NCBI RefSeq assembly: GCF_025602895.1
Contig: NW_026516524.1
Location: 1 to 26,562 of the forward strand
Length of the DNA stretch: 26,562 nt
Source of the DNA: Polychytrium aggregatum
Lineage: Eukaryota; Chytridiomycota; Chytridiomycetes; Polychytriales
Direction of reading: 5' to 3'
In this document: positions 1 through 26,562 of the stretch, piece by piece
How the letters are laid out: each line of letters begins with the position of its first letter
Position numbering within the stretch: position 1 is the stretch's first letter
Made by a program: the position numbers and the translations under genes
Notes under the pieces: model-generated
What the model saw: the letters and a program-made list of their open reading frames with translations, nothing else
What the model was told of the DNA's origin: nothing
The model's database searches: none

Positions 1-1
1 A

Positions 2-3289: not shown

Positions 3290-3291
3290 GT

Positions 3292-3298
3292 GTGGGAG
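3292..3298 (+). other. Polypurine tract before the shared LTR
   Basis: GTGGGAG directly precedes the LTR's TGTA and follows the pol stop by two bases. It is in the position expected for the plus-strand primer of reverse transcription. It is short for a polypurine tract, so the boundary rests mainly on the TG start. Confidence 0.6.
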
Positions 3299-3607: not shown

Positions 3608-3624
3608 TGGTAGCATCGGAAATC
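3608..3624 (+). other. Primer binding site of the complete gypsy copy
   Basis: TGGTAGC immediately follows the LTR CA end. The TGG is complementary to the tRNA CCA end, and TGGTAGC resembles initiator-Met primer sites in fungal LTR elements. The exact tRNA cannot be set without the host tRNA set. Confidence 0.65.
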
Positions 3625-3729
3625 CTCGTCTTGTTTTCGTCCTGTTTGTCCTCTTTCTAGATCCTCAAGCTGGATCCCGCCTCTCTTGCCGACCGACTCT
3701 CCTCTCTGTCCCTGGAGCCTGCCCCTGCC

Positions 3730-4551: not shown

Positions 4552-4573
4552 GTGGCTCTGGAGCCCTAGTAGG
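4530..4573 (+). promoter_or_regulatory. Candidate programmed -1 ribosomal frameshift signal between gag and pol
   Basis: GGGAAAC occupies 4530-4536 in the gag frame as G GGA AAC, a canonical X XXY YYZ slippery heptamer. Slippage by one base gives GGG AAA, which is exactly the pol frame. Eight bases downstream a hairpin can form: CC-A-CTAG-(GT)-GGCT at 4545-4557 pairs with AGCC-CTAG-T-(A)-GG at 4562-4573 around a CTGG loop. The gag stop lies inside the hairpin at 4549-4551. Slippery site, spacer and structure all fit the standard -1 frameshift layout; function is inferred. Confidence 0.8.
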
Positions 4574-8447: not shown

Positions 8448-8449
8448 GT

Positions 8450-8456
8450 GTGGGAG
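8450..8456 (+). other. Polypurine tract before the 3' LTR
   Basis: This is the same GTGGGAG as at 3292-3298, directly before the LTR's TGTA start. Confidence 0.6.
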
Positions 8457-8765
8457 TGTAGGAGATGGTATCTCCGACGCTGTGCTGCGCGTACTGCGCG
8501 TACTGCGCGGCGCAGTGGGTCGTGACCTGTGCTGCGCTTTGCGTTTTCACGCACCGCAGGCAGGCCACCGCAGGGTATACCTGCGGGTTGCCCCCGTTCC
8601 CCCCGTTTGTCTGGAGTTCGGTTTTATCGTGAATAAACGTAAGTGCTCCCCGAGCTCACCCGTCCGCTAGAGTAGCCTAGCACCGCCCTGTTCTGCCCCG
8701 TCCTGTCTTGTCTTGTACCCCCTCCCTCCCCGTCTTGCCCCAACGTCCCAGTAGTGGACGTTACA
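8457..8765 (+). repeat. Ty3/gypsy 3' LTR (309 bp)
   Basis: It is the same length and, as far as I can see by eye, the same sequence as the LTR at 3299-3607, with AATAAA at 8632-8637. Near-identity of the two LTRs points to recent insertion or gene conversion. It abuts host sequence CACGG at 8766; a 5-bp target duplication CACGG would be expected left of the outermost 5' LTR, which is outside the window. Confidence 0.93.
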
Positions 8766-8772
8766 CACGGCC

Positions 8773-12500: not shown

Positions 12501-13213
12501 CGGAGGACAAGGCGCTCGACGACACTCTCCCTCATCGGCTGTCCATCGATGGTGACCCAGATGGGCTTGCAGTCGTTGAAGACCTCGTAGAGGGTGACGC
12601 CGAATGCATACACATCGGTAGCCTTGGATGAGCCGGTAGGACGCTCGTCATCGAGCATTTCCGGTGCAATATACTCGAGAGTGCCGCCTGTCGGCTGGTC
12701 GCGGCGGGTTCGATTGGCCGAGGCCGAGGTGTGCTTGGTGCGGGACATTCCAAAGTCGGTCACCACAGCATTGGATGAGCCATCCAGCAGCACATTGAGG
12801 GACTTGAGGTCGCCGTGGACAATGTTGTTGCCGTGGAGATAGGCCATGCCCGAGGCAACCTCATAGAGAAGGCGGATCTTTTCACCCAGAGGACGAGGGG
12901 TGGGTGCGGTGGCAAAGTGGTTGCGGAGGGTGCCGTTGGGCATGAACGGCGAGACCATGAAGGGTTTAGTGGCTGTGTCGCAGGCGCCGAGGAGTGGAAG
13001 GATATGGGGGTGACTGAGTCTGTGCCAGATGCCAATCTCACGGCCAAAGTCGGCGAGTTCGTTCTGGTTGTAGCCCCTATAGAGCTGCTTGATGGCGACA
13101 GGGGCGCCATAGTACGAGGCCTTGAACACCTCGCCAAAGCCACCGGCTGCGATAGGATTGACTGACCGGTCGGTGATGGCTTCTTCAGGGATATACCAGG
13201 GTTTGTCGGCCAT
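9538..13213 (-). CDS. Kinase / NACHT-type winged-helix / WD40 / coiled-coil fusion protein (NLR-like), two exons
   Basis: The coding sequence is complement(join(9538..9915, 9974..13213)), 1205 residues. It starts at ATG 13213 in a CCATGG context; the frame's three upstream residues use non-ATG codons. Residues 15-285 are a tyrosine-kinase-like kinase: A-G-G-F-G-E-V loop near 22-29, VAIK Lys42, HGD loop with Asp135, DFG at 153-155, APE at 183-185. All catalytic residues are present. Residues about 395-600 resemble the winged-helix and helical arm of fungal NACHT proteins (S-P-L-T-I...L-F-G-I; I-P-D-S-L-R-Y-S...H-W), but no Walker A motif precedes them. Residues about 685-1020 carry about eight WD40 repeats, several almost identical. 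Exon 2 ends in a Lys/Glu/Ala/Arg coiled coil. Such domain sets act as regulated sensor/scaffold proteins in fungi; sensing or self/non-self function is inference. The intron marks it as a host gene. Confidence 0.85.
9559..9684 (-). repeat. 21-bp tandem repeat (6 units, 42-bp higher order) coding for the coiled coil
   Basis: Six 21-base units alternate in two types, differing at C/T in TTCC(T)CTGCC against TTCC(T)TTGCC, giving three 42-base pairs. They encode alternating E-E-E-A-R-K-A and K-E-E-A-R-K-A heptads, so each unit is exactly one coiled-coil heptad. Unit number is likely to vary between strains (inference). Confidence 0.9.
9916..9973 (-). other. Spliceosomal intron in the kinase/WD40 gene (58 nt)
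   Basis: On the minus strand the donor is GTAAGTCC, with a CTAAC branch site about 10 bases before the acceptor CCGCAG. It lies in phase 0 between a CTG codon and CCT. Removing it joins the WD40 exon to the long in-frame coiled-coil frame; reading through it gives an early stop at 9851. Exon lengths of 3240 and 378 are both multiples of three. Confidence 0.88.
10230..10830 (-). repeat. 126-bp near-identical tandem repeats coding for WD40 blades
   Basis: The TGGCATCCCACACCTTGATGG segment (plus strand) recurs at 10315, 10441, 10567 and 10693, exactly 126 bases (42 residues) apart. An older copy lies further right, near 11077. Differences cluster in the codons after G-H-T and before D-K-T-I-K, which sit on the exposed face of WD40 blades. 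Confidence 0.9.
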
Positions 13214-13300
13214 GGTTGACAACGGGAGACGGGACGAGGACTGAAGGAGGCGAAAACGGAGGGATACCCGCTGGACGAAGAGAAAGGAGGCAATCCTCTC

Positions 13301-13307
13301 TTATATT
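13301..13307 (-). promoter_or_regulatory. TATA box of the kinase/WD40 gene
   Basis: On the minus strand AATATAA lies about 90 bases before ATG 13213. The leader between is pyrimidine-rich, as in many fungal promoters. Confidence 0.5.
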
Positions 13308-14227: not shown

Positions 14228-14581
14228 TTACTGGCTGGCCTGAGTAGCCGGGAAAGCAGCGACATACGAGCTTCCATCAGGAGCAATGCCGACCGGGGGT
14301 GCGGTGCTGGGCTGCTGGGCGACGACCGGCTGTGTCTGAGCGGGAGGTGCTTGCTGAGCAATGACCGTGGCGACGGGGGTGGCATCAGCGGCCGCAGAGA
14401 CCGGTTGCTTCTGAGGGCGGGGCAACGCCGAAACCTTTCCGGTAGAGGTGGAGGCGCCGCTGAACCAAGGGCAGAACTTTCTCGCCGCCACATAGCTCAC
14501 ACCCACGACGACAACGATGATGATGCCCCAGAAGATGTACGGGTTGGACGAGATGTAGTCGGTATAGTCAGAAAACGCCAT
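14228..14581 (-). CDS. Small single-pass membrane protein (viral block), unknown function
   Basis: This is a 117-residue frame starting at ATG 14581; the three codons before it are not ATG. A short N-terminus of about 14 residues is followed by a strong hydrophobic segment at about 15-34 (F-W-G-I-I-I-V-V-V-V). A basic stretch comes next, then a long Ala/Pro/Gln/Thr-rich tail of low complexity. The layout (short N-terminus, one helix, soluble C-terminal tail) is common among small NCLDV virion membrane proteins, but I cannot assign a family. It lies downstream of the Sel1 gene on the same strand. The 64-base gap holds an A/T-rich TTTTTTTATTGAC stretch that could end the upstream transcript and start this one. 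Confidence 0.6.
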   Translation of the reverse strand: MAFSDYTDYISSNPYIFWGIIIVVVVGVSYVAARKFCPWFSGASTSTGKVSALPRPQKQPVSAAADATPVATVIAQQAPPAQTQPVVAQQPSTAPPVGIAPDGSSYVAAFPATQASQ

Positions 14582-14645
14582 GCTGAGCAATGTATTGTCT
14601 TACAGATAAGTCAATAAAAAAAGTTTGCAGCAAACACCACGGCGC

Positions 14646-15890
14646 TCATTCCATCTGGCGCAAGGCGAGCTCAGCACCTCTGGCGTACAATTCCTTGGCC
14701 ACCTCAGGGTTTCTGGCAAAACCCACACCATCGGAATAGCGGCGAGCCAAGTGTCGCATCGCCGAGGGGAGTTCCTTTGTGGTGTTGTTGATGATGGCGT
14801 TGACTTGGTTGTCGTCAAAGTCTTTGAAGTATTTGAGGCTGATCTCCTCGAAAGAGAACTTTGACCCAAGTGTGGCGGCTTGAACGTGCAATTCGAACGC
14901 CTTGGCAATGGAGCGACTGGTACCACGGCCAAAATGGTAGCATGTTGCGAGTCCCGAGATACCCTCGGCAAACGACTGACTCGCTGCCTTGGAGAAGAAC
15001 TCGAATGCTTTGTGGTAGTCCTTCTCTACACCATCACCCTCGTAGTATGCACAGGCGATGTTGTACTGTGCACTGACATGTCCTTGGTCGGCGGCTTTCT
15101 TGAACCATGAAAATGCGACTTGGCTGTCTCTGGTGATGCCGATGCCATCGAAGTAGAGTGTGCCAATGACATTCTGAGCACAGGCCAGACCACCATCGGC
15201 TGCGAGAACAAGCCATTTGAGACATCTGGCCGAGTCCTTGTCGACATATATGCCATTGAGGTAACACATCCCAACCTCGAAGCAGCCGGTGAGGTTCTCC
15301 GCCTCAGCAGCCTTTCGGAAGTTGCAGAATGCTTCTTGGTGATTCTTGGGGACTCCGATGCCATCGCGATAGCATCGGCCAAGACGAAACTGTGCCTCGG
15401 CGTTGTTCCTCGCGGCCAGTATAGAGTACGCTTTCGCAGCCAGCACAAGATCTTGCTGGTCGAGGATATCGTTGGTGAGATATTGCTCGATCGGTGCGGT
15501 TGATCCATTCGGCAGCTTCTCCAGACACCCAGTCAGTAGCCTGGCGGCTCTCACATGGTCGATTGGGAGACCAATGCCATTCTGGTAGCGTACTCCCAGT
15601 GCATACTGCGAGGGTAGATGACCATGCTTGGAAGCGTGGATGAACCACTTGGATGCGATGACGTCGTTCTTTTCGACGCCATCTCCCTTTGCGTAGTGGT
15701 ACGCTAATTTTGCCATGGAAGAGACACATCCAGTATTCGCAGCATTGACCAAGGCCACGATGAAGCTCCTCTGTGGCTGTGGGCCAGGTGGTCTGGGGTG
15801 CGCTGATGTGATGTTCTCTTGAGCATTGCCGAGTGAGCTCTTCTTGGCGATCTGGGCGAATGTTACGGGCGGTGACTTGCGTTTGGCCAT
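14646..15890 (-). CDS. Sel1-like repeat protein (viral block)
   Basis: The protein has 414 residues, starting at ATG 15890 (M-A-K-R-K); the longer frame to 15935 has only a GTG. About seven Sel1-like (TPR-related) repeats run from about residue 65 to 400. Diagnostic pieces include Y-A-L-G-V-R-Y-Q-N-G-I-G, F-R-L-G-R-C-Y-R-D-G-I-G-V, and repeated A-x-x-W-F-x-x-A-A followed by G-x-x-x-A-Q. Such solenoids bind protein partners and are frequent in amoeba- and protist-infecting giant viruses, often as host-interaction proteins (family knowledge; target unknown). The N-terminal 40 residues are basic and unstructured. It sits between TFIIS and the small membrane protein on the same strand. A host origin is possible, but the position and lack of introns favour viral. 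Confidence 0.85.
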   Translation of the reverse strand: MAKRKSPPVTFAQIAKKSSLGNAQENITSAHPRPPGPQPQRSFIVALVNAANTGCVSSMAKLAYHYAKGDGVEKNDVIASKWFIHASKHGHLPSQYALGVRYQNGIGLPIDHVRAARLLTGCLEKLPNGSTAPIEQYLTNDILDQQDLVLAAKAYSILAARNNAEAQFRLGRCYRDGIGVPKNHQEAFCNFRKAAEAENLTGCFEVGMCYLNGIYVDKDSARCLKWLVLAADGGLACAQNVIGTLYFDGIGITRDSQVAFSWFKKAADQGHVSAQYNIACAYYEGDGVEKDYHKAFEFFSKAASQSFAEGISGLATCYHFGRGTSRSIAKAFELHVQAATLGSKFSFEEISLKYFKDFDDNQVNAIINNTTKELPSAMRHLARRYSDGVGFARNPEVAKELYARGAELALRQME

Positions 15891-16020
15891 GATGGAGTGC
15901 GATGCGAGGGGAAGCGTCTGCTCGCAACCCACCACCCGACACCGATATCAACCGGACACCCTTGCACGCCGCACTCGCCGCTCCTGAGCACGTTACACCG
16001 ATTTCTATAAAATAGCTATA

Positions 16021-16518
16021 TTAATTATTAATCTTCCACCGCTTGTCACAGGTCAGACAGTGGGCGTATATGGTGCTGGCCTCGTCCGAAGAGCGATGCT
16101 GGGCCAGGATGAACTCGGTGTTGTATGAGTCTCTGCCCATGCGAGCACAGTCCGTGCATTTCATCTGTCCGTCGGCTCCTCCGGACTTGCCGTTTGCCGC
16201 TGCTGCCGCCGTCGTGCCGGTGACCCCCTGGTCTTGTGCCAGCCAAGCGTCTGGACGAAGGTTCTGGTGTGTCAGATCATCCAGCCGGGAAGGATCTTGA
16301 ATGACACCCGAGTCGAGCAAGCCGACGATGGCCTCCAGGTTCGACAGCATCATGATGGCGCGGGACTTGTATGCGTCTCGGAACTGCGGGTTGATCCAGC
16401 TGCACACGCCCTTGTAGGTTGTGGTGGCATAGCGATAGATGCTCTCTTCCAAGACCTCGGCGTGGTCGGGCGTCTTTGCCTGGAGGGTCTGCAGGGCGAT
16501 GCTACGCGGCGAGTCCAT
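16021..16518 (-). CDS. Transcription elongation factor TFIIS-like, viral
   Basis: This 165-residue protein starts at ATG 16518. A C-terminal zinc ribbon has C121-x2-C124 and C154-x2-C157. Between them lies Q-H-R-S-S-D-E, the loop whose acidic pair (Asp145, Glu146) enters the RNA polymerase active site and stimulates cleavage of backtracked RNA. The first 90 residues fit a reduced TFIIS central domain; the N-terminal LW domain of cellular TFIIS is missing, as in NCLDV homologues. An Ala/Gly-rich linker sits at about 100-117. It would serve a virus-encoded multisubunit RNA polymerase, which is not in this window. It is divergent from the membrane protein gene at 16591; a candidate viral promoter motif lies 33 bases before its ATG. 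Confidence 0.92.
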   Translation of the reverse strand: MDSPRSIALQTLQAKTPDHAEVLEESIYRYATTTYKGVCSWINPQFRDAYKSRAIMMLSNLEAIVGLLDSGVIQDPSRLDDLTHQNLRPDAWLAQDQGVTGTTAAAAANGKSGGADGQMKCTDCARMGRDSYNTEFILAQHRSSDEASTIYAHCLTCDKRWKINN

Positions 16519-16550
16519 TGGGTGCTATTGCATATGCCGAGGATGAAACC

Positions 16551-16565
16551 CTTACTGCGTTTTTT
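16551..16565 (-). promoter_or_regulatory. Candidate viral promoter motif upstream of TFIIS
   Basis: On the minus strand AAAAAACGCAGTAAG ends 33 bases before the TFIIS ATG. The same 15 bases occur upstream of the F-box gene, and close variants upstream of TFIIB and PCNA. Confidence 0.6.
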
Positions 16566-16590
16566 CTGACACACCCTTCGCAGCAGACCA

Positions 16591-17127
16591 ATGTCAAGTC
16601 AAATCTGGATCATCGTGGCCGTTATAGCGCTGTGCTGCGTCTGCTCATCGCTCCTGACTGCGGGCGGAGGATTTGGACTCTACCAGTACAACAAGACCCA
16701 CTCGACAACACCATGGTCCTGCGTCTACGTCCCGACCATCAAGATGTATACCGTTGCACGCATCAACCAGAACAACGCCGAGTGCATGTACAACACTGAC
16801 GGCAATGGCTGCTATTATTTCCCAGTGAATCCAGGTGCAGCCACAGGTGATGGCAATGTCAGTCCGATGGATGAGTGTGCTAACATGATCCAAAACGTAC
16901 CCACCCCGACCACACTGGCTTCCCAGCAGACGCTGAATCTCGACATTTACACCTGCGGACCCAACTCGACCAACTACAAGCTCTGGAACCGCACAGGCTA
17001 CGAAGCAGCGAACGACCCGTGTGATGTCATTTTGAACAGTGACAATCGCTCGATCGTCAATATGCTCTTTGCACCGAGCACAACCACCATCAACTCGGCA
17101 TACCCACCACCTGCGGCTACTTCTTGA
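16591..17127 (+). CDS. Type II-like membrane protein with Cys-containing ectodomain (viral block), unknown function
   Basis: This 178-residue frame starts at ATG 16591. Residues 5-30 are a hydrophobic, Cys- and Gly-containing segment, best read as a membrane anchor rather than a cleaved signal. The remaining domain has six or seven spaced cysteines (C-V-Y, E-C-M, G-C-Y-Y, D-E-C-A-N, Y-T-C-G, D-P-C-D) and several N-x-S/T sites. No family is recognised. Its stop overlaps the stop of the convergent L1R/F9L-like gene by 11 bases (17117-17127). Its neighbour is also a membrane protein, which suggests a virion envelope role (inference). Confidence 0.7.
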   Translation: MSSQIWIIVAVIALCCVCSSLLTAGGGFGLYQYNKTHSTTPWSCVYVPTIKMYTVARINQNNAECMYNTDGNGCYYFPVNPGAATGDGNVSPMDECANMIQNVPTPTTLASQQTLNLDIYTCGPNSTNYKLWNRTGYEAANDPCDVILNSDNRSIVNMLFAPSTTTINSAYPPPAATS

Positions 17128-18118
17128 GCTTGCTCACGATGGATGCTGGTGATGGCATACCACCCGGTCCGCTGCTGCCGCTCCCAGAATCGATGCTTTG
17201 GTAAGCATAGTACCCGATGGCTGCAATCGACGAGATGCAGCAGCAACAGCAGAGGCATGCAGCAACCAGGGCAATGATCGCTGTCGAGTCGAGACCGGAA
17301 GTCGTCTGGTCAGACGAGAACTGACTCGATGTCTTGGTTGTATTGCCCTGTGCGATTTGAGTGATGGCTTTGTTGTCGAGCATGCACTGCTGGTATGATT
17401 TGTTGGAGTTGGACTGGATGATGCCGATTGCTGTGGCACAGGGTGCGAACTGGTTCTTTTGGATAGCGGAAAGCTGTGAAGCACACGAGTTCTGCAGGTT
17501 CAGGTATGTGCTCGTGTCCATGTTGGTGCTGACCAAGTTGCAGTTGTTGTTGGAGCTGGAGTTGCTGCCAGAGAGCAGGCCCTGAGCCTTCTGGATGGCG
17601 GATGCCACAGCCTGGCTATCCACGCTGTTGGTCTGGGCCATGAGTGTCTGGACCATCGATGTCATGGTGCACTGCTGAACGGCGTCATTCACATTGGTCT
17701 GGCTGATATTGGCCATGCTGCAGTCGTGGGTCTTGCAGTACTCACACTGTGAGTTGTCGATGACGTTTGTCTGGTAAGCGGCCATGTTGTTGGAGCAAGC
17801 GTTGACGATGTTCTTGACGTCCGAGTCCGACATGGTGGTGCCGATGACATTGCGGGTCTGGTTGCTGACTTGATTGCTTCCGCTGTCAAACATACTCAAG
17901 GGGTCGAATGCTTTGACGACATTTGCGAGGCCTCCGGCAGCGGCCGTAATATTGTCAGCGGTAGATGAGATGGTCTTGCAGGCTTCTGCGGCATTAGCGC
18001 CAAACATGTTCTTTCCGGTATCGGCCTGCTCGAGCGACGGAGATGGATCGACAAACATGTAGTATCCGAGGATGATGATCACGGCCAAGTATCCAAATAG
18101 GTACACTGGAACGGGCAT
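17117..18118 (-). CDS. L1R/F9L-type viral membrane protein
   Basis: This 333-residue frame starts at ATG 18118; the frame runs on to 18604 but only into the antisense of the next gene. Residues 4-23 are hydrophobic. A long Asn/Gln/Ser/Thr- and Cys-rich domain follows, with repeated x-Q-T-N patterns and paired cysteines (C-E-Y-C, H-D-C, Q-Q-C-T). A C-terminal membrane helix with a run of five cysteines lies at about 278-306, followed by a short Gly/Ser/Pro tail. This architecture matches the NCLDV family of virion membrane proteins related to poxvirus L1/F9, and partly the A16/G9/J5 type. The N-terminal Met-Gly needed for myristoylation is absent. Assignment rests on composition and topology, not on an alignment. 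Confidence 0.65.
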   Translation of the reverse strand: MPVPVYLFGYLAVIIILGYYMFVDPSPSLEQADTGKNMFGANAAEACKTISSTADNITAAAGGLANVVKAFDPLSMFDSGSNQVSNQTRNVIGTTMSDSDVKNIVNACSNNMAAYQTNVIDNSQCEYCKTHDCSMANISQTNVNDAVQQCTMTSMVQTLMAQTNSVDSQAVASAIQKAQGLLSGSNSSSNNNCNLVSTNMDTSTYLNLQNSCASQLSAIQKNQFAPCATAIGIIQSNSNKSYQQCMLDNKAITQIAQGNTTKTSSQFSSDQTTSGLDSTAIIALVAACLCCCCCISSIAAIGYYAYQSIDSGSGSSGPGGMPSPASIVSKLKK

Positions 18119-18156
18119 CTCTTGCGACGGAGGGTGTGTGGCTACCATCGGGCGAC

Positions 18157-18173
18157 AAAAAAACGCAGTAAGG
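18157..18173 (+). promoter_or_regulatory. Candidate viral promoter motif upstream of the F-box gene
   Basis: A run of seven A followed by CGCAGTAAGG ends 36 bases before ATG 18209. It shares AAAAAACGCAGTAAG with the motif at 16551-16565. It also lies in the divergent gap shared with the L1R/F9L-like gene. Confidence 0.6.
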
Positions 18174-18208
18174 CCTTCGATACACATGTACAGCATGACG
18201 CACCAGCG

Positions 18209-19696
18209 ATGGAGCTGCCACTCGAAGTCTGGGGCGAGATCGCCTCGTTCCTCGACATCCGATCGTGCTTGGCACTGACACGCACCTGCCGCCGATTCCT
18301 CGCATTTCATCAACCTGCATGGGAGGATACGATCTACCAGTGCTGCATCAACACCCGCAGCCTCTCGCTGATCCAGGTGATCATGCGACCGATCCCGGTT
18401 CTGTGGCGGAACGAAAGCGTCCTTCGACACTACACGCGCTTCAGCTCGATGATGCACAAGGAAGCAATGGTCTGTGAACTGCTCCGGCGTAGCCCCACAT
18501 CCACTAACGATCCCGGTTTCCGAATTCTGGAAATGTTGCTCGCGTGTGGAGTGTCGCCGCACGGTGAGATTGCTGCCCGATGCATCATGTGCATCCAGAA
18601 CCACGATGTCTTGGCACGTATCGTCCCTGTGATGACAGCCAATTGTGCCCGGAGGGGCGAGGAATCACTGGCGTTGTTTGCCAAGACCGCAGTCGAACGA
18701 GCGATACAGACGGGTCGCCACGAATTCATTCAAGCCTTCCTCGGGCAAGTGACACTCGATCTGGTGGACAGCATGCACTACTTTGACTGGGATCTCATCA
18801 ACGAAGCCATCTATGCCGAGAGCACGATCGTGCTGGATCTCTTCTTCCAACACCAGTGGCCTCGCCCCAGGCAGGATATCGTCCAGCAAGCCGCCATCAT
18901 TGGATCCAAGCGCAGCAGTGCTGTCGTTGTCGAATGGGCACTCGGCCACAATCAACTGGACGACCCTCGTGTGCTCCTCGGCCACATTATCAGCCTCTCT
19001 CCCGAGATCCACGACCTGGTTCTCCGATTCTTCCCGAACGAGACGACTCGTCTCCTGAAGCGACTACTCAAGTCACATCCAAACTCCGACCCACAGCCCT
19101 TGATCTACTACTGTCTCTGTCGATCGCCGCAGATCGACGCGGACGCCCTGGTGCTCACTGCGAGATACCAGAAACTCGAGCTCTTGCGATTCATGCTGGA
19201 GCAGATGAATCCGGAATCGTACGAGTCGGATCTGTGGTTCGACCTCCTCTGCAGCTCGGGACACAGCAACGCAACCGTGGCATTCGTGCTGCACCACCAC
19301 TGCTACAGCACCAAGGAGCAAGTCGATGCACTGCGCCGATTTGTGGTGTTTGGATTCGAGCCTGGAACCAATGTGATTCTGGACATGCTCGACGATCGCG
19401 ATCTTCCCGACGACATCTTGTTCCGGGCATACTTCAACATCAGCGAGTTCACTGGGATCTGTGTGTACACCCTGCTGCGTCGGGTGCTGCACATCCCCAG
19501 GATCATTGGATTCCAGGAAATGGGCGAGACCGTCCTGGAGCGGGTGATCCGCTTGCGAATGTGGTCGCACATCGTGCCTCTGGTGGATGCCGGGGTGCGG
19601 GTGTGCAATTCGCATGTGTTGCTGGCGAATGTGTATGCATGTCCCAACCGCATTTCGTGTAAGCTGGTCGTGAATGCGCCCCAGGAGGGTGAATAA
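18209..19696 (+). CDS. F-box protein with helical repeat region (viral block)
   Basis: The protein has 495 residues with the start chosen at ATG 18209, because the promoter motif lies just upstream and the F-box begins at once. An in-frame alternative ATG at 18122 would run through that motif. Residues 1-35 form the F-box (L-P-L-E-V-W-G-E-I-A-S-F-L, then C-L-A-L-T-R-T-C-R-R-F). The rest is a long series of amphipathic helices of about 30-35 residues with V-L-D-L-F-F and L-E-L-L-R-F-M-L cores, like degenerate ankyrin repeats. F-box proteins bind Skp1 and bring targets to SCF ubiquitin ligases; giant viruses and poxviruses carry many. The target is unknown. Confidence 0.75.
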   Translation: MELPLEVWGEIASFLDIRSCLALTRTCRRFLAFHQPAWEDTIYQCCINTRSLSLIQVIMRPIPVLWRNESVLRHYTRFSSMMHKEAMVCELLRRSPTSTNDPGFRILEMLLACGVSPHGEIAARCIMCIQNHDVLARIVPVMTANCARRGEESLALFAKTAVERAIQTGRHEFIQAFLGQVTLDLVDSMHYFDWDLINEAIYAESTIVLDLFFQHQWPRPRQDIVQQAAIIGSKRSSAVVVEWALGHNQLDDPRVLLGHIISLSPEIHDLVLRFFPNETTRLLKRLLKSHPNSDPQPLIYYCLCRSPQIDADALVLTARYQKLELLRFMLEQMNPESYESDLWFDLLCSSGHSNATVAFVLHHHCYSTKEQVDALRRFVVFGFEPGTNVILDMLDDRDLPDDILFRAYFNISEFTGICVYTLLRRVLHIPRIIGFQEMGETVLERVIRLRMWSHIVPLVDAGVRVCNSHVLLANVYACPNRISCKLVVNAPQEGE

Positions 19697-19745
19697 AAGT
19701 CAACTCTCTCTTGTAGAGCATCACATTCTGCGTCTGGTCCCAAGA

Positions 19746-20831
19746 ATGTACATGATTGATCAGATCCCCAAAACCATGATCCCACAGGACGCCATCCGCA
19801 ATGCGGGGTGTGAAGTTGAGCCCAGATACACGGAGAGCACGCACACCGACTACCCCGGCCTCGTGCTGACCAGCAAGTGCAACGGACGAGACAACTTCCA
19901 GGCGTACATCCAAAGCGCCAAGGGTGACAAGATCCTCTATCCATGCAATCCCAAGGAGATCAACGACATACCACAGGAGGGTGACGGGCTCGGTAACATC
20001 GTGTCTGCCCATGCTGCTTCCGACGGCACGCTGATCCGCTTGGGACACATCGGCGGCAAGTGGATCATGAGTTCCAACACATGCATCAACGCCCGAGACG
20101 CTCGCTGGGGTAGTTTCAAGAGCTTCTATACGCTCTTTGTGGATACGCTGAAGGAGCGTAAGCTGACTTACCAGGATTTCATTCATAGCCTTGACCCGAG
20201 CCGCACCTACCACTTTAGTCTCGAGCACCCGGAGAACCGCAACGTGATCTTCTATCCGAACCCACGAATTGTCTTCCTAAGCTGTGCCGATGCCAGCACC
20301 GGTGAACCAGTCCTTTACTCACGCGTATCGATGCAGCCACCCACAGGGACTGAGTATCCGCCGATTGTGCTCTCTGCCAATATCCGCGGAGTCATTTACA
20401 CTGCCCAAGATGGACGAGTCTACAACCACGATCTGCCTTGGTACAAGCGAGCCGGTGAACTCAAGGGGAACGAGAAGAACCTGCTGCACGCCTACTACCG
20501 GGCCTGGTGCAATGGGAACGGTGAAGAGTTCATGCGGCTCTTCCCGGATGTTGGCTTCAGTCAAAAAAAAGCCAATCTCTATATCCAGCACTTTCTTCGG
20601 CTCGTTCTGCAGCTGTATCGCAGAGTCCATGTGCAGCGGGTGTGCAAGGACGATGTGCTTTTGGACCGTGGCAGTAACGTCGGCCTGTTTGAGATTGTAG
20701 ACCGCATGCTGGAGGTCTACAACGAAATGGGCACACCCATGCGACTCCCGGAGACGGCGACGGTGGTGGGTACATTTAGCGGACGTTTTATTCACGATGC
20801 CATGCGAAACGTCCTGTTTGTGGATCTCTGA
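19746..20831 (+). CDS. RNA-ligase-like (T4 Rnl1-fold) protein with degenerate active site
   Basis: The protein has 361 residues from ATG 19746; an in-frame ATG at 19674 would overlap the F-box gene's end. Pieces align with the nucleotidyltransferase motifs of T4-Rnl1-type RNA ligases. S-D-G-T-L-I-R-L at 92-99 corresponds to motif I, with Ala91 where the adenylated Lys should be. Y-H-F-S-L-E-H-P-E-N-R-N-V-I-F-Y at 155-170 corresponds to motif III, with Ser for the acidic residue. R-G-V-I-Y at 214-218 corresponds to motif IV, with Arg for Glu. D-L-P-W-Y-K at 229-234 corresponds to motif V, without K-x-K. The ligase chemistry is therefore probably lost, and an RNA-binding or structural role is possible. 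The motif alignment is by eye and from family knowledge. Confidence 0.6.
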   Translation: MYMIDQIPKTMIPQDAIRNAGCEVEPRYTESTHTDYPGLVLTSKCNGRDNFQAYIQSAKGDKILYPCNPKEINDIPQEGDGLGNIVSAHAASDGTLIRLGHIGGKWIMSSNTCINARDARWGSFKSFYTLFVDTLKERKLTYQDFIHSLDPSRTYHFSLEHPENRNVIFYPNPRIVFLSCADASTGEPVLYSRVSMQPPTGTEYPPIVLSANIRGVIYTAQDGRVYNHDLPWYKRAGELKGNEKNLLHAYYRAWCNGNGEEFMRLFPDVGFSQKKANLYIQHFLRLVLQLYRRVHVQRVCKDDVLLDRGSNVGLFEIVDRMLEVYNEMGTPMRLPETATVVGTFSGRFIHDAMRNVLFVDL

Positions 20832-20839
20832 ACTGAAAC

Positions 20840-21826
20840 TCAGAAATCAGCTTCGAGGTCAAAGACCTGAGGCACACCACCCAATACACCGGCCTTTCTG
20901 TACTCGCCCACGCGCTTTTCGAAAAAGTTAGTCTTGCCCTGGAGAGAGATGAGCTCCATAAAGTCAAAGGGGTTGAGAGCGTTGTAGAGCTTGGGGTAGC
21001 CGAGAGCGACGAGGAGGCGGTCGGCGACAAACTCAATGTACTGCTTCATGAGAGTGGCGTTCATACCGATGAGGGCACAGGGGAGAGACTCGGTCATGAA
21101 TTCCTGTTCGATGGCGACGGCGTCCAAGATGATGGCCGTGACGGTCTCGGCCGGGGGCTTCTCGGTGAGCTTGGAGTAGATCAAGCAGGCAAAGTCAGTG
21201 TGGAGACCTTCGTCGCGCGAGATCAGCTCGTTGGAGAAGGTCAGGCCGGGCATGAGGCCGCGTTTCTTGAGCCAGAAGATGGAGGCAAAGGCACCCGAGA
21301 AGAAGATGCCCTCGACAGCGGCAAAGGCGAGGAGGCGCTGGGCAAAGGGGGCGTCTTGGTCCTCGATCCACTTGATGGCCCAGTTGGCCTTCTTCTGGAT
21401 GCAGGGGATGGTCTCGATAGCACCAAATAGGCGAGTGCGCTCCTCCGTGTCCAGGATGTAGGTGTTGATCAGCTGGGCGTACATCTCCGAGTGGATGTTC
21501 TCCATCATGATCTGGAACCCGTAGAAGGCGCGGACCTCGGGGAGCTGGGTCTCGGCATAGAAGCGGCCGCACAGGTTCTCGTTGACGATACCGTCCGAGC
21601 CGGCAAAGAAGGCGAGGATGTGCTTGATGAAGAAGCGATCGTTGTCGGTGAGCTTGTGCTGCCAGTGGGGCGGGTCTCTGGCGAGATCGACTTCCTCGAC
21701 GGTCCAGAAGGAGGCCTCGGCTTTCTTGTACATGGTCCAGATGTCATTGTACTGGATCGGGAAGAGCGTGAAGCGCTTGGAGCTGGGAACGAGGAGGGCG
21801 TGGTCAAAAGACGACATATCTGGCAT
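20840..21826 (-). CDS. Ribonucleoside-diphosphate reductase small subunit (class I R2), viral
   Basis: The protein has 328 residues from ATG 21826; ATG 21817 is the alternative. All residues for the di-iron tyrosyl-radical site are in place: Asp78, Glu109, His112, radical Tyr116, Glu172, Glu206 and His209, with spacing equal to that of eukaryotic R2. The C-terminal tail ends F-D-L-E-A-D-F, the peptide that docks onto R1. With R1 it reduces ribonucleotides to deoxyribonucleotides, supplying DNA precursors; R1 is not in the window. Intact R2 genes are common in NCLDVs. The lack of introns and viral neighbours on both sides favour a viral copy over a host one, which a tree could test. Divergent from the coiled-coil gene. 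Confidence 0.97.
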
Positions 21827-21931
21827 TGGTGCAGAAATTGTACTAAAGGAAAAATCACACATGTGAGGTATAGGTCCTCCCAACGGCAGACCGACACCCG
21901 GCTTTTAAACCCCATCCCGACCAGAACGACC
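21827..21931. promoter_or_regulatory. Divergent promoter between R2 and the coiled-coil gene
   Basis: This 105-base gap separates two divergent viral genes. It holds AAAGGAAAAATCACACATGTG (21845-21865) on the plus strand, a partial match to the A-run/CAC motif seen elsewhere, and CTTTTAAA at 21902-21909. The assignment to one or the other gene is open. Confidence 0.4.
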
Positions 21932-22462
21932 ATGTCCTCCCACGCCGACCACGATGAGCCTGCGCAGTTTTCACCCCCCCAGAGTCCAAACTCCACTCCG
22001 CGATCCCGACCGGAGACGGAGGTTAGCGACGATGTTGACCCCGACCCTGTCCTCGAGACGGGGTCCGTCGTCCGCAGCAGCAACAACGATCCCCGCCTCG
22101 AGATGGAGGTCACCCGATTTCGCCGGGAGATCGAGGAGTATGCCAGCCTGACCGGGCAGGTGGTGGATGTGCGCGGCCAGGTCAAGATCCTGCAGGCACG
22201 CATCAAGGAGCTGGAACCGGGTATCCAAAAGTTCATGCGAGATAACGGCGTGGATGCGATCGACTTGCCCAATGGCAGCATCAAGCTCCAGTCGAGCACC
22301 CGCATGGCACCGGTCAAGAAGGAGAATATCATTGACCACCTGTGCCGCACCATGCCCAAGGACACTGTCGAAGCCCTCGTCGAGAGCCTCTGGGCATCGC
22401 GCGAGAGCACCACACTCGAGAAGATCAAGCTGACCAAGGCCAAGAAGCAAAAGACGCAGTGA
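21932..22462 (+). CDS. Small coiled-coil NCLDV protein (DUF5760-like), unknown function
   Basis: This 176-residue frame starts at ATG 21932, just after the divergent promoter; the frame extends upstream only through the antisense of R2. Residues 1-52 are Pro/Ser/acidic and unstructured. A coiled coil runs from about 55 to 105. A short domain then reads D-A-I-D-L-P-N-G-S-I-K-L, P-V-K-K-E-N-I and a basic C-terminus (K-A-K-K-Q-K). The L-P-N-G...P-x-K-K-x-N-I pattern after a coiled coil recalls small uncharacterised NCLDV proteins of the DUF5760 kind. That link is from memory and moderate. It converges on the TFIIB gene with a 10-base gap. Confidence 0.65.
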   Translation: MSSHADHDEPAQFSPPQSPNSTPRSRPETEVSDDVDPDPVLETGSVVRSSNNDPRLEMEVTRFRREIEEYASLTGQVVDVRGQVKILQARIKELEPGIQKFMRDNGVDAIDLPNGSIKLQSSTRMAPVKKENIIDHLCRTMPKDTVEALVESLWASRESTTLEKIKLTKAKKQKTQ

Positions 22463-22472
22463 GAGGAAGAGC

Positions 22473-23411
22473 TCAGTTGGGCACACCAGATGTATTGGAT
22501 TCAATATACTTGACCACTTTGGTGACAGTAATCTTTGTCAACCCGACGACACTCAGTATGGCAGGGGTGAGATCGGGCAAGTGGAGTGCAATGCACCCAG
22601 CGGCAGTGGAGACCGGGGAGAACTGCTCCATTGAGCCGGTGGCAACAAGAGATTCGACCCTGTGTACAATCGTACGCTGCTGGTCTCCAAAGATGCCGAG
22701 TTTGTTGCAGTACATCTGAGCGTGATCGGCAGCGGACATGGGTGCGACTGAAGGATGGCCGTGGATATCCAGGAGGATGCTGCAGCCCTTGGTGAGGAAT
22801 CTCAACGGGACACGGAATTGCTTGACAAGCTCGCGCTGACCGATGGGTGAGTTGGCCCGTTCAAAGGCAAAGTAGAAGCAGGCGATTTGAATACCGATAC
22901 GGGTGTCGCCGCGATAGAGGACATGGTCGCGATTGGATTTGATGGATGGGCCCGGTTTGAGCTTTGCCATGGTGTCGACGTAGATGGCGGCGGCCGACTC
23001 GGTGATGTGGTTGTGGATCTTGAAGCTGTCACCGAGGGAACGAATCTCGCGCAAGTACTTGGAGCGAAGACGGTCCGAGCTGGAAAAGGTGGCCCAGAGA
23101 TGGTAGCGCTTTCTCTTGGACATGCCGTCGCCGTTTCGGATGTACGATGTGGCAGGGGTGGTTTCCATAGCCATCAATGCACTGGAATCGCCAAGGAGAG
23201 GGCGGTTGAAGCAGATGCCACACAGCGCACATGCCTCGAATCCGTTGTTGTCGATCGTGTTGCCGTTGCGTTCGCAGTCGCAATCGCACTTGGAAGGTGA
23301 GGGTGTCGCTGGTTCGGTGATGAAACTGAAGCTGTCGCTGTCAATGTCGATGCATTGAGACCAGATGGTGTCGATGAGCGATTCGTCGAGTGCTATGGGT
23401 GCGGATGGCAT
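22473..23411 (-). CDS. Transcription initiation factor TFIIB-like, viral
   Basis: The protein has 312 residues from ATG 23411. An N-terminal zinc-ribbon-like cluster is present (Cys42/44/46 with C61-x2-C64 and Cys67). A basic linker comes next, then two cyclin-like repeats: about 110-200 (H-I-T-E-S-A-A-A-I-Y, G-I-Q-I-A-C-F-Y-F-A) and 225-305 (S-T-A-A-G-C-I-A-L, L-T-P-A-I-L-S-V-V-G-L-T-K-I-T-V). TFIIB recruits RNA polymerase to TBP-bound promoters. NCLDV versions serve the viral polymerase and are divergent, as here. The first cysteine pair is oddly spaced. With TFIIS it suggests a viral transcription system. A candidate promoter motif lies 40 bases before its ATG. Confidence 0.9.
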   Translation of the reverse strand: MPSAPIALDESLIDTIWSQCIDIDSDSFSFITEPATPSPSKCDCDCERNGNTIDNNGFEACALCGICFNRPLLGDSSALMAMETTPATSYIRNGDGMSKRKRYHLWATFSSSDRLRSKYLREIRSLGDSFKIHNHITESAAAIYVDTMAKLKPGPSIKSNRDHVLYRGDTRIGIQIACFYFAFERANSPIGQRELVKQFRVPLRFLTKGCSILLDIHGHPSVAPMSAADHAQMYCNKLGIFGDQQRTIVHRVESLVATGSMEQFSPVSTAAGCIALHLPDLTPAILSVVGLTKITVTKVVKYIESNTSGVPN

Positions 23412-23450
23412 GTCGAAGAGTCGCCGTCAATGATATTCTGGTACGGATTG

Positions 23451-23467
23451 CTTAGAGTGATTTTTTT
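23451..23467 (-). promoter_or_regulatory. Candidate viral promoter motif upstream of TFIIB
   Basis: On the minus strand a run of seven A is followed by TCACTCTAAG, ending 40 bases before the TFIIB ATG. It is a variant of the A-run plus CRCAGTAAG motif found before TFIIS and the F-box gene. Confidence 0.5.
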
Positions 23468-23494
23468 CGATCGCTCACAGGCAGGCTAGCGAAC

Positions 23495-23821
23495 ATGGAT
23501 CCGGCCACTATCCTTGCGATTACGAACACTATATGTGGGACTCTGCTCATTGTCTCAGAGACCCTGCCGTTCATGCGCAACTCGCCCTACAACGGCATCA
23601 TCGAGACCCTGGCGAGTCTCATGCTCGGGTGGAGACCCCCTGGTCCCACAACAACCGCAACCACGACGACAGGGCCCTCCACCGGTCCTGTGGTCTATGT
23701 CGCTCCGATTCCCCCGGAGCCAGCGCCGTCTCCGCCCACAGCAGCTGCGAGCCCGGTGGGAAGTCCAATTCCGTTCGCCACCACGGTGGTCACGACCACC
23801 ACATCGACATTTTCGCACTGA
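23495..23821 (+). CDS. Small membrane protein with Pro/Thr-rich tail (viral block), unknown function
   Basis: This 108-residue frame starts at ATG 23495, divergent from TFIIB. Residues 5-25 are hydrophobic and could anchor it in a membrane; a second mildly hydrophobic stretch lies at about 33-46. The tail is rich in Pro, Thr, Ala and Val and could be glycosylated. No family is recognised. The case for a real gene is the clean start after a short divergent spacer, the viral gene packing, and the similar layout of the 14228-14581 protein. Confidence 0.5.
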   Translation: MDPATILAITNTICGTLLIVSETLPFMRNSPYNGIIETLASLMLGWRPPGPTTTATTTTGPSTGPVVYVAPIPPEPAPSPPTAAASPVGSPIPFATTVVTTTTSTFSH

Positions 23822-23834
23822 GCCTCAGCCTGTG

Positions 23835-23851
23835 AAAAATTCACAGTAAAG
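23835..23851 (+). promoter_or_regulatory. Candidate viral promoter motif upstream of PCNA
   Basis: AAAAATTCACAGTAAAG ends about 61 bases before the PCNA ATG and resembles the motifs upstream of TFIIS and the F-box gene. A TACTAGTATAAT stretch follows at 23859-23870. The greater distance to the ATG may reflect a longer leader. Confidence 0.45.
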
Positions 23852-23912
23852 AAAACCATACTAGTATAATCAGCAGGCGTCCTGAGACAACCCCAGACAC
23901 AAGCACGCCGAC

Positions 23913-24776
23913 ATGATGATGGACTGTGACGACCAACCGCAGCAGCACCGAATGACATATCACACGCTGGACTATGACCGCCTCCTGGAGGTGTCCACGG
24001 TCAAGTCCAATGTGTTCAAGAACATAGTGGAGGCCCTGAAGGTAGTCATCACAGAGGCCAACCTGATTTTCACACCCGAGGGGATCCGGCTGGCTTCCGT
24101 GGATACCCGCAAGTACGCCCTGATCCATCTGGGGATCGACAGGGACGCTTTTGAGATCTACCACGTCCCACACAAAGTGGTCGTGGGCCTGGACATGATC
24201 CATCTCCACAAGATCTTCCGCACGATCGTGGCCAATGACACCCTGACGTTCTTTGTGGACAAGTCCAACACCTCCAAGCTCGGCTTGCTAATCAAAAACT
24301 CGGAGCGGAAGGCGGTCAACAAGTTTATGATCCCGATGCTGCAGCTGCCAGAGTACGCTGTCTGCGACATCCGCGAGTTTGAGCATGCTCCGCCCGAGAT
24401 CCACAGTGGGGACTTTCAAAAGATCTGCCGGGACATTGCCTCCATGGGGACGGAGGTTATTGACATCACCCTGTTCAAGAAGCAGCTGATCTTCAGCAGC
24501 CGCGAGAGCGTGATCGAGCATGAGGTCCATGTCGATGTGCTGAACCACACGGCGATGGGCGGAACCGGGGCGGAGACGGACATTATCCAAGGGACTTTCT
24601 TCCTCAAGTTTCTGGTGGGGTTCTCCAAGGCGGTGCACTTATCTCCGCGGGTCCGCGTGATGATACAGAACAGCTGCCCGCTCATACTAGAATACCAGAT
24701 CGAAGCTCTGGCAAAGTCATCCCTGAAGTACGTCTTGAGCCCCGTCAAGACGGGGGACATGGGCGGGGCTGTCTGA
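23913..24776 (+). CDS. Proliferating cell nuclear antigen (sliding clamp), viral
   Basis: The protein has 287 residues from ATG 23913 (three successive Met codons). It matches PCNA along its length: V-F-K-N-I-V-E-A-L-K...F-T-P-E-G-I-R-L-A-S-V-D near 35-67, the interdomain D-K-S-N-T-S-K-L-G-L-L region, and a C-terminus with C-P-L-I-L-E-Y and L-K-Y-V-L-S-P-V. Cellular PCNA is about 258-265 residues; this one has about 15 extra N-terminal residues and a short tail. PCNA forms a trimeric ring that holds DNA polymerase and other factors on DNA. Intron-free and divergent, it fits the NCLDV clamp rather than the host gene. It is the rightmost recognisable viral gene here. Confidence 0.95.
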   Translation: MMMDCDDQPQQHRMTYHTLDYDRLLEVSTVKSNVFKNIVEALKVVITEANLIFTPEGIRLASVDTRKYALIHLGIDRDAFEIYHVPHKVVVGLDMIHLHKIFRTIVANDTLTFFVDKSNTSKLGLLIKNSERKAVNKFMIPMLQLPEYAVCDIREFEHAPPEIHSGDFQKICRDIASMGTEVIDITLFKKQLIFSSRESVIEHEVHVDVLNHTAMGGTGAETDIIQGTFFLKFLVGFSKAVHLSPRVRVMIQNSCPLILEYQIEALAKSSLKYVLSPVKTGDMGGAV

Positions 24777-25087: not shown

Positions 25088-25177
25088 ATGTCTCTCATTC
25101 TCTTGGTTGCCCTTCTTGTGATCGGTTTGCCCTTCATTTCCGCTGCCCTTTTCGCTACAGCATGGCAAGAGTCTTAA
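25088..25177 (+). CDS. Possible 29-residue transmembrane microprotein or upstream ORF
   Basis: The first ATG after the TATA-like box opens a 29-residue frame that is almost wholly hydrophobic (S-L-I-L-L-V-A-L-L-V-I-G-L-P-F) and would form one membrane helix. The frame stays open and hydrophobic for about 25 codons upstream without an ATG, so it could be the end of a spliced exon. It may also act as an upstream ORF of the next frame. I cannot choose between these. Confidence 0.25.
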   Translation: MSLILLVALLVIGLPFISAALFATAWQES

Positions 25178-25281
25178 TCACATCCGGTCCTTACAGTGGC
25201 TTCACTGGCACCCATTTCTTCTGCCTATAGTTTTGTTGATCGTGACCTCTGATTCCCCCCAACACCTTCAGCTCTGTGATC

Positions 25282-25644
25282 ATGGTCAGGTTGGATATCC
25301 ACCCCGATCAAGAGATCAGACACAACGGAGGCCTGGCCGCTTCTTTTGATGTCATCTTCAGACATCAAGGAGTCGTCACCTTTGGTACGATGATCCGTGA
25401 CTCGAGCACCTGGAACGTGTTCTCCTCGAACGGATTCTATCACGTCCGTGTCGGCAACAGCTCCATCCGTGTTGCCATCAAGGACATCATCACACGACTG
25501 TGGTTTCCTACTCCCTCGATGCCCTCGGTATCGACTACAAACCCTTCAATCGAGCCCGTCCCAGAGAACCTCAAGAGCGGCATCCATCACCCCTACATCC
25601 AGAAACAATCGCAAGCGTGCTCCTCTGGTGCCTGTGAGGAGTGA
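25282..25644 (+). CDS. Unknown protein, 3' end cut by an LTR insertion
   Basis: This is a 120-residue frame from ATG 25282; the codons before it are not ATG. The first 75 residues are balanced and look like a folded domain (F-D-V-I-F-R-H-Q-G-V-V-T-F-G-T-M), while the rest is Ser/Pro-rich. The LTR of a minus-strand gypsy element starts at 25633, so the last four codons (C-E-E and stop) come from the transposon. The original protein was probably longer or ended differently. No family is recognised. An intron in the region 25038-25270 is possible but no donor is convincing. Confidence 0.4.
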   Translation: MVRLDIHPDQEIRHNGGLAASFDVIFRHQGVVTFGTMIRDSSTWNVFSSNGFYHVRVGNSSIRVAIKDIITRLWFPTPSMPSVSTTNPSIEPVPENLKSGIHHPYIQKQSQACSSGACEE

Positions 25645-26050
25645 ACAAGCGCAAGGACGAAGACCAAGTCTTGGTATGCGCTTTATTAGCTTTTAGCCCC
25701 GAACCACCAAAGAACAAGTTTTGTTCGAACTGGTGTTCAACATAGGCTCAGACATGCAGGGCTATTTATAGACCGGGAGAGGTCGAGGGGCCAAAGTGGC
25801 GAGAAGGTGGAGCATCACAGAGACGCGAGAAGGGGGTGCGAGAGTGGCTGGTGTGCAAGCGAGAGAGGCTTGGCACAGCCCGGGACATGTGCCGAGCGGT
25901 GGGGGAGGCAGGAAATCCAGTAGACGCGGGTGGCAACGGCGCGTGCTCATGCATGGGGGGCAAACAAACACGTGGTGGACTCATGATTGGTGCGGAGGGA
26001 GAGAGCATGCGGGACAATCTCATTGGTCCGTTGTGATGCTGGTCATCACA
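25633..26050 (-). repeat. LTR of a second Ty3/gypsy family (418 bp)
   Basis: Read on the minus strand it starts TGTGATGACC right after a polypurine tract and ends CTCCTCACA, giving TGTGA/TCACA inverted ends. It holds a good TATA box (TATAAATAG at 25770-25762) and an AATAAA signal at 25687-25682, in the right order for an LTR. It is unrelated to the 309-bp LTR on the left. The expected 5-bp target duplication is GTGCC (25628-25632), whose partner lies outside the window. Confidence 0.85.
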
Positions 26051-26063
26051 CTATCTCCTCCTT
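26051..26063 (-). other. Polypurine tract of the second gypsy element
   Basis: On the minus strand AAGGAGGAGATAG lies directly before the LTR's TGTG and overlaps the pol stop region, as expected. Confidence 0.75.
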
Positions 26064-26562
26064 AAACTACGGCGTGTTCCATCTTGAGTTCTCTGGGGCC
26101 AGGCTGTCTGGGTAGCGTCGGTGGTACTCCCGCGGCCACCGTTGGGGCAAAGACAATGTCGGCGGGCTCCCAACTTCGATCGGTGGACCGGGTAGCCTTT
26201 CCAATCGATGAGATAGTGCAGCTTTCCGCGCACGAACTTGGAGTCTAAGATCTCTTCGACCTCCCACTCCAAGTTCCCATCGATGACCACCGCAGGGGGC
26301 GGCGCTTGCACCCGACCCGGAAGCGAGTTCTTCTTGTAGGGCTCAAGAAGAGACACATGGAACACCGGGTGCACCTTTATGTCCTTTGGCAAGTCCAGGC
26401 GGAAAGCCAATGTCCCGACGGCCTCGAGGATGGTGAATGGTCCAATCCTCTGGTAATCCAGCTTCTTGCTTGGGCGAGTGGTGCTGATGTTACGAGTCAG
26501 CACCCAGACTTGATCGCCCGGACGCAAGTCGGGAGCCTGGGACCTCCGGAGATCTGAGAAGT
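26062..26562 (-). pseudogene. Ty3/gypsy Pol C-terminus (integrase end and chromodomain), frameshifted
   Basis: The frame runs in from the right edge. It shows the integrase C-terminal region (A-P-D-L-R-P-G-D-Q-V-W, then [16 protein letters not shown]) and then a chromodomain (V-E-E-I-L-D-S, L-I-D-W-K-G-Y-P). After G-Y-P, at about 26170-26189, the reading frame is lost. The expected W-E-P-A continuation is in another frame, which reaches a TAA at 26062-26064 next to the polypurine tract. One base has been gained or two lost. The element is therefore probably inactive unless the shift is a sequencing error. It is clearly different from the left-hand family. Confidence 0.85.

Follow-up and report, generated by a model that had tools for sequence, protein, structure and literature searches.

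A segment of a probably young, multi-copy endogenous giant virus in a fungal-type genome

How do twelve adjoining, uninterrupted genes of giant-virus type come to lie in a fungal-type genome, and what does their intact state mean? The question is raised by a block of open reading frames at 14228-24776 in a stretch of 26,562 nucleotides, hereafter the window, which is one entire contig (C249) of a 64.68-Mb assembly with 418 contigs. A preliminary description, made from the letters of the sequence, had presented this block as an intact endogenous giant-virus insertion. The open reading frame listing does give twelve adjoining ATG-to-stop frames of 108-495 amino acids (aa), with no internal stop in any of the twelve; by arithmetic on their coordinates they fill about 95% of the interval. 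We consider it probable that the window carries part of an endogenous giant virus (Nucleocytoviricota) which is young and present in several copies in this fungal-type genome.

Hallmark genes elsewhere in the genome

The giant-virus origin is borne out by open frames for the major capsid protein (MCP), family B DNA polymerase (PolB), VLTF3, and the A32 ATPase elsewhere in the genome; MCP shares contigs C5 and C63 with copies of the block. All three MCP matches (PF04451) lie in open 418-aa frames, on C63, C326, and C5, and score 174-176 bits (cut-off 34.8); the 14 control genomes had none. The closest solved structures were 8h2i MCPv1 (334 bits), 3kk5 (288 bits), and 1m4x (labelled PBCV-1, 243 bits), a nearness to chlorovirus-type MCP that is limited by the thin sampling of viral capsids in the PDB. 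We take 8h2i and 3kk5 to be entries of the chlorovirus PBCV-1. The single VLTF3 match, on C96, is also in an open frame, with none in the 14 controls; it adjoins the A32 ATPase (PF04665, 27.1 bits, cut-off 22.8), whose open frame runs off the retrieved stretch. Of the 18 PolB matches, two fall within one uninterrupted frame each, on C5 and C189; the frame lengths are 992 and 995 aa.

On C5, MCP is located at 19 kb, pieces of the block at 51-68 kb, an S74 fibre gene (PF13884) at 69 kb, and PolB at 159 kb. On C63, the S74 gene is at 7 kb, the ribonucleotide reductase small subunit (R2) at 20 kb, and MCP at 45 kb, so that their relative order matches that on C5. The fibre gene, R2 block, and capsid gene span about 50 kb on C5 and 38 kb on C63. 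The retrieved VLTF3/A32 stretch matched C96; the sole other matches were two weak ones of 73 bases and an identical one of 789 bases on C140, which does not extend to VLTF3.

Two transposon-type sequences were seen near these genes. A TnpB/Cas12f-type zinc-ribbon fragment (PF07282), possibly Fanzor-like, is found at C96:12115-12579, near VLTF3/A32. A DDE_3 transposase gene stands beside MCP on C63 (PF13358) and on C326, where its frame is split; it was not seen there on C5.

Of the genes that the preliminary description proposed to seek in the flanking contig, capsid, polymerase, and A32 are present in the genome; for RNA polymerase, the search returned a second RPB1-type gene, which may be viral or a host paralogue. 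This gene forms a 901-aa frame on C96, 27 kb from VLTF3, and a 928-aa frame on C24 (66 kb); the two are 99.1% identical over 1.1 kb and very close to cellular RPB1. The other RPB1-, RPA1-, and RPC1-like genes of the genome (typed by eye) are located elsewhere, and the other RPB1 is also an open frame, of 1481 aa. We dropped the second gene as a host marker of a hemizygous insertion, its sequence being RPB1-type of unsettled origin. At C68:602050-603100 (RPC1-like) and C301:375650-376850 (RPA1-like), both typed by eye, the matches run across several frames, as they would with introns.

The D5 family (PF08706) gave 13 matches, none on capsid contigs; two are on the contigs with the tandem arrays described below (C374 and C182). 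One 432-aa frame (C24:90 kb) resembled D5 by eye and was not counted, since Pfam gave nothing above cut-off. Genes resembling D5_N/DUF5906 helicases are present on C374, C101, C182, C193, and C206, four of them identical over 3402 bases and the fifth 99.8% identical over 2175. A second near-identical family of this type occurs on C176, C235, and C262. These helicase-like genes may represent a separate virus-like mobile element.

The viral contig collections scanned returned no relatives of nucleocytovirus capsid or PolB, and one capsid pattern scanned over the genome contig collection gave no match. Among 80 R2-bearing viral loci, the capsid family matched none of 41 records, but it was silent in the controls too, so that absence is not shown; the three loci with open reading frames listed were phage-like by eye.

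The host is of fungal type, as had been described: chitin synthase (PF01644) has 26 matches in the genome and none in the 14 control genomes. This family also occurs outside the fungi. An old copy of the block is found at 672 kb of C24, a contig of 1.04 Mb, and further old copies lie in C13 and C371. At 100.5-111 kb, C24 carries pseudouridine synthase, PLP decarboxylase, and formin genes, and at 93-98.9 kb a Ty3-type retrotransposon (Ty3) with identical 385-base long terminal repeats (LTRs). Judged from this contig context, the block is, in its old copies, embedded in a host chromosome, the exact virus-host junction on C24 aside.

Copies of the block and their divergence

The DNA search for copies scored 37 of 752 candidates, and the copy counts are lower bounds. 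Parts of the block repeat on C5, C63, C317, and C337 at 97-99.8% identity, and older copies at about 80-96%. C317 is 99.76% identical to window positions 13767-26562, with no base change in the block genes and two 1-base indels in the Sel1 gene; the window and C317 are probably one locus present twice. Identity to the window is 98.9% for C337, 99.6% for C63, and 98.9% for C5 (97.3% on the kinase side). Over 2.77 kb, the five copies fall into three groups: the window and C317, which are the same; C63 near C337; and C5. The R2 protein of the window is identical on C5, C63, and C317. The R2 gene on C337 has seven 1-base indels, perhaps an assembly error. These near-identical copies, and inserted Ty3 elements whose LTR pairs are 99.0-100% identical where compared, agree with the recent origin suggested earlier.

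We compared divergence from the window at 0-fold degenerate, 4-fold degenerate, and intergenic sites, using Fisher's test. At 0-fold sites, it is 0.0031 for C5 (13/4193), 0.0012 for C63 (3/2573), 0.0031 for C337 (15/4872), and 0.010 for C374 (23/2302); at 4-fold sites the values are 0.0175, 0.0146, 0.0186, and 0.059, respectively. The 0-fold/4-fold ratios are 0.18, 0.08, 0.17, and 0.17 (the last for the C374 array), that is, divergence about 5-12 times lower at 0-fold sites, with P values of 2.6e-6, 4.4e-5, 9.3e-8, and 6.1e-11. Intergenic divergence is similar to that at silent sites (0.013 for C5 and 0.019 for C337), and for these two copies 0-fold divergence is 4-6 times lower than intergenic. 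In the older copies, the 0-fold/4-fold ratio is 0.47-0.59 (P 0.008-0.12, four pairs tested). A neutral test based on the codon table gave P values of 5e-5 to 2e-17; we judged it too strong, as old frame-shifted copies also gave about 0.5. In that test, the 102-base overlap of the L1R and F-box genes enters twice and the kinase is omitted; the comparison with 4-fold and intergenic sites replaced it.

Because 0-fold divergence is far below 4-fold divergence in the young copies, their differences would have arisen mostly in functioning genes. We lean modestly toward at least three recent endogenizations of closely related viruses, because copies that are 1.5-1.9% apart at 4-fold sites are much closer to each other at sites that change amino acids. 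The simplest account of the young copies would be that related viruses in circulation integrated separately; a reactivating provirus would be the other. Repeated, recent infection of such fungi is probable. An evenly balanced proposition is that a fungus-infecting lineage circulated until very recently, and maybe still does, and endogenized repeatedly in this fungus, with at least three closely related strains leaving open hallmark genes over an older broken layer of the same lineage.

The most serious alternative disputes the repetition, not the viral origin: one endogenization may have been followed by duplication within the genome through tandem arrays, Ty3 rearrangement, and alleles. Tandem copying is evident at C374:34595-50128 and C182:30882-37753, where units of 5178 bases, each made of 3.7 kb of viral DNA and 1.44 kb of other repeat DNA, are 97.8% identical to window positions 15997-19730; units 2 and 3 of the C374 array are identical. 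The older copies, on C24, C371, C161, C125, C374, and C13, are in pieces that keep the order Sel1, TFIIS, membrane-type protein, L1R-like protein. A set of frame-shifting indels is common to five of these six, which points to descent from one broken copy, and C13 has three of the same indels. Haplotig-like pairs in the assembly would fit duplication by alleles. However, neutral divergence after integration would not give the strong silent-site bias of the young copies, and the Ty3 insertions are not the same between copies. We regard a single endogenization as possible but rather unlikely.

Several points weigh against reading the window as part of a young, repeatedly endogenized giant virus. 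Haplotig-like pairs are seen among the chitin synthase genes, and some block copies may be alleles. Mutation bias or constraint at an earlier time accounts for part of the shortfall of the ratios below 1, because the frame-shifted old copies still give about 0.5 rather than 1. The intergenic values for C374 (2/95, below the 4-fold value) and C63 (0/87) come from too few sites to serve as a control. For the L1R-like gene, the ratio of replacement to silent substitution rates (dN/dS) is 0.42 against C337 and 0.07 against the C374 and C182 units, but 0.83 over the 309 bases that C5 contains, where two silent and six replacement changes indicate little constraint. The kinase gene on C5 is frame-shifted and, at a dN/dS of 0.48, also shows little constraint; 31 silent and 50 replacement changes separate it from the window copy, and eight and seven separate the window and C337. 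None of the examined contigs carries every hallmark gene, and the second RPB1-type gene (C24, C96) may belong to the host as a paralogue. The viral assignment is made from gene matches rather than trees and is to Nucleocytoviricota, not to an order within it, and the fungal identity of the host would rest on the chitin synthase matches, not rRNA.

Features and borders of the window

The features of the window are listed in Table 1. Among the markers of nucleocytoplasmic large DNA viruses named in the preliminary description, TFIIS, R2, and PCNA are confirmed by Pfam. TFIIB is weak: Pfam gave no match to this protein even at E=10, and the best PDB sequence match is the one in the table. The L1R/F9L label found no support in Pfam, PHROG, NCBIfam, or the PDB. 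Single-sequence AlphaFold predictions were uninformative (mean pLDDT 34.5 for the TFIIB-like and 36.1 for the L1R-like protein), and no fold search was based on either. Fungal placement of R2 in a tree would not on its own speak against a viral block, because this R2 is of the eukaryotic type and, among the sequences compared, the one nearest to it outside its own copies is the genome's other R2, on C301. That gene has an intron-like gap.

Table 1. Features of the 26,562-nucleotide window.
Feature	Position	Strand	Evidence and remarks
Ty3-type LTR retrotransposons, left of viral DNA	1..8768	+	first truncated by contig start, second complete
Ty3 polyprotein frames	29-3289 and 4836-8447		reverse transcriptase/integrase by eye
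Ty3 LTRs common to both left elements	about 3299-3607 and 8457-8765
Ty3 gag	3730-4551		Pfam PF03732 and PF19259
Kinase + WD40 protein, one 1120-aa open frame	9851..13213	-	Pfam PK_Tyr_Ser-Thr and WD40
117-aa protein	14228..14581	-	one membrane span by eye; no Pfam match
Sel1-repeat protein, 414 aa	14646..15890	-	Pfam PF08238, 211 bits
TFIIS-like elongation factor	16021..16518	-	Pfam PF01096, 31.3 bits, cut-off 21
Membrane-type protein, 178 aa	16591..17127	+	open frame; no Pfam or PHROG match
Cys-rich protein with hydrophobic stretches	17117..18310	-	L1R/F9L likeness by eye only
F-box-like protein, 495 aa	18209..19696	+	Pfam F-box-like E=5e-5, slightly below cut-off
RNA ligase-like protein (T4 RnlA type)	19674..20831	+	phrog_562 E=5.4e-6; TIGR02308 E=2.6e-4
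Ribonucleotide reductase small subunit R2, single frame	20840..21862	-	Pfam PF00268, 375 bits
DUF5760 protein	21932..22462	+	Pfam PF19064, 43.4 bits, cut-off 27
Possible divergent TFIIB	22473..23411	-	PDB sequence match TFIIB E=0.0057, residues 70-276
108-aa protein	23495..23821	+	open frame; C5 and C317 copies identical
PCNA sliding clamp	23913..24776	+	Pfam PF00705 and PF02747, 61.4 and 48.5 bits; TIGR00590 above cut-off
5' part of 200-aa viral-block frame	25162..25632	+	weak KOW match; Ty3 LTR cuts at 25633
Ty3 element start (LTR onwards)	25633..26562	+	continues into full element on C317

DUF5760 is presumably a family described from giant viruses. Both F-box Pfam models score below cut-off, and the NCBIfam match of the RNA ligase-like frame is far below the family cut-off. 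The 117-aa protein is the same on C317; on C337 its gene shows two changes, one silent and the other a replacement.

The kinase-WD40 frame and the twelve frames of the block are flanked by Ty3, on the left at 1-8768 and on the right from 25633; no host gene was identified within the window. The preliminary description had drawn the block between spliced host genes. Instead, its left neighbour is the single kinase-WD40 frame, and its right neighbour is a viral frame cut by Ty3; C5 has viral genes on both sides of the block, beyond the borders drawn earlier. There, the kinase-WD40 gene is placed between the block and the S74 fibre gene. Its matches run collinearly with those of the block on C5, on C371 in part, and on C337 for the 5' part, and on this synteny the gene is part of the viral block; its C5 copy carries frame-shifting indels. 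To the right of the block, C5 has a 200-aa and then a 243-aa frame, neither with a clear family.

The 200-aa frame is uninterrupted at C5:50803-51405, whereas a Ty3 LTR cuts it in the window and on C317; the piece in the window also has small indels compared to C5 and C317. On C317, Ty3 occupies 11859-17928 within this frame and the block sequence picks up after the second LTR, where C5 is continuous. The right edge of the window block is thus Ty3 inside a viral frame, and at least one viral frame is disrupted at this locus. The statement that no frame is disrupted holds for all twelve frames of the block but not for this one. On C5, Ty3 replaces the sequence corresponding to window positions 13775-18001. 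Four of eight blind 1.2-kb samples of C5 were Ty3-like by eye; among the other four, one was Sel1 and one kinase (both by Pfam), and two were from 5 kb and 80 kb.

Within the window, positions 271-3607 and 5430-8765 are 99.97% identical, and 25633-26562 matches at least 21 other places in the genome over about 930 bases at 98% identity. Imperfect 21-base repeats occur at 9537-9725, immediately past the end of the kinase-WD40 frame. Two stretches at 13870-14050 resemble parts of tRNAs by eye; ARAGORN and Rfam gave no confirmation. The sequence AAAAAACGCAGTAAGG is found exactly at 16550-16565 (-) and 18158-18173 (+), upstream of two divergent gene pairs, and has three matches at up to three mismatches, with 0.07 expected, the motif having been chosen from those same upstream regions. 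It is a candidate viral promoter motif.

Remaining alternatives and known systems

A latent or inducible provirus able to replicate, like the Ectocarpus phaeoviruses, would fit the open MCP, PolB, and VLTF3 frames, the twelve open frames of the block, and the silent-site bias. However, Ty3 cuts both the C5 and the window copy, and a viral frame of the window is split. The serine-recombinase family, the sole integration enzyme family searched, had no match on viral contigs and two weak matches on C135 and C306. We consider such a provirus improbable. Domestication of the viral genes, maintained by host selection, would also keep frames open in several copies and hold 0-fold divergence low; nevertheless, the structural and replication genes MCP and PolB are open as well, and many copies exist, several of them broken, which makes domestication very improbable. 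Contaminating or episomal virus DNA, or the assembly chimera that the preliminary description had named as a possible refutation, is hardly credible, for although C249, C317, C326, and C337 are short contigs and the right end of the window has indel noise (27 gaps compared to C317), Ty3 sits within a viral frame whose site is uninterrupted on another copy, the gene order repeats across several contigs, and an old copy lies deep in the 1.04-Mb contig.

Under recent, repeated endogenization, a nucleocytovirus would infect fungal cells with its own replication genes (PolB, PCNA, R2) and would bring the transcription factors TFIIS and VLTF3. Its DNA, in which the block is part of a larger segment that on C5 and C63 runs from the S74 fibre gene through the block to MCP, would be inserted in a chromosome, either accidentally or aided by the virus, and then inherited. 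Ty3 invasion, tandem amplification, and decay would follow, and alleles and duplicates would raise the copy number. The older frame-shifted relatives would stem from an earlier endogenization by the same lineage, copied further in the genome. It would be the youth of the integrations that explains the intact block genes, rather than a working provirus in the window copy.

Endogenous nucleocytoviruses are already known in fungi. Rhizophagus irregularis has a 1.5-Mb endogenous region related to Asfarviridae, which, like the virus proposed here, is a nucleocytovirus in a fungal genome, judged recent and with hallmark genes (PMC10640383). That region is one contiguous insertion, missing from four other strains and with fewer transposable-element signals, whereas here several copies are interrupted by Ty3 and the capsid is nearest to chlorovirus among solved structures, in contrast to the Asfarviridae affinity in Rhizophagus (PMC10640383). 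Gonapodya prolifera and Allomyces macrogynus, likewise early-diverging fungi, carry virus-like genes, including the markers PolB and D5, as small nucleocytovirus islands among eukaryotic genes with Phycodnaviridae affinity (PMC5294986). Recurrent endogenization is known in Amoebidium appalachense, which has hundreds of polymorphic giant-virus insertions; however, this species is a relative of animals, and its insertions are silenced by 5-methylcytosine (PMC11244446). Transposable elements and duplications have also invaded the several similar copies of Euglena gracilis, but these are eroded Asfuvirales elements (PMC12455990), whereas here several open hallmark frames and the silent-site bias suggest recent activity. 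Ectocarpus, likewise a eukaryote, passes on intact giant-virus genes in its phaeovirus elements; there, reactivation was shown (PMC13236599), whereas the present case is described from genome sequence.

Among the titles and abstract openings found by searching open-access papers, a scope that leaves most subscription papers and bioRxiv outside, none describes a multi-copy, recently active giant-virus lineage in a fungus. In 2023, it was stated that fungi had no known double-stranded DNA virus (PMC10640383), and endogenous copies are for this reason the main evidence for such viruses. Several near-identical copies, whose capsid and polymerase genes are open and whose differences are biased to silent sites, speak for a virus that replicated in a fungus and came back more than once. 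Its marker sequences can be used to search isolates, transcriptomes, and water samples, which makes giant-virus infection of fungi directly testable.

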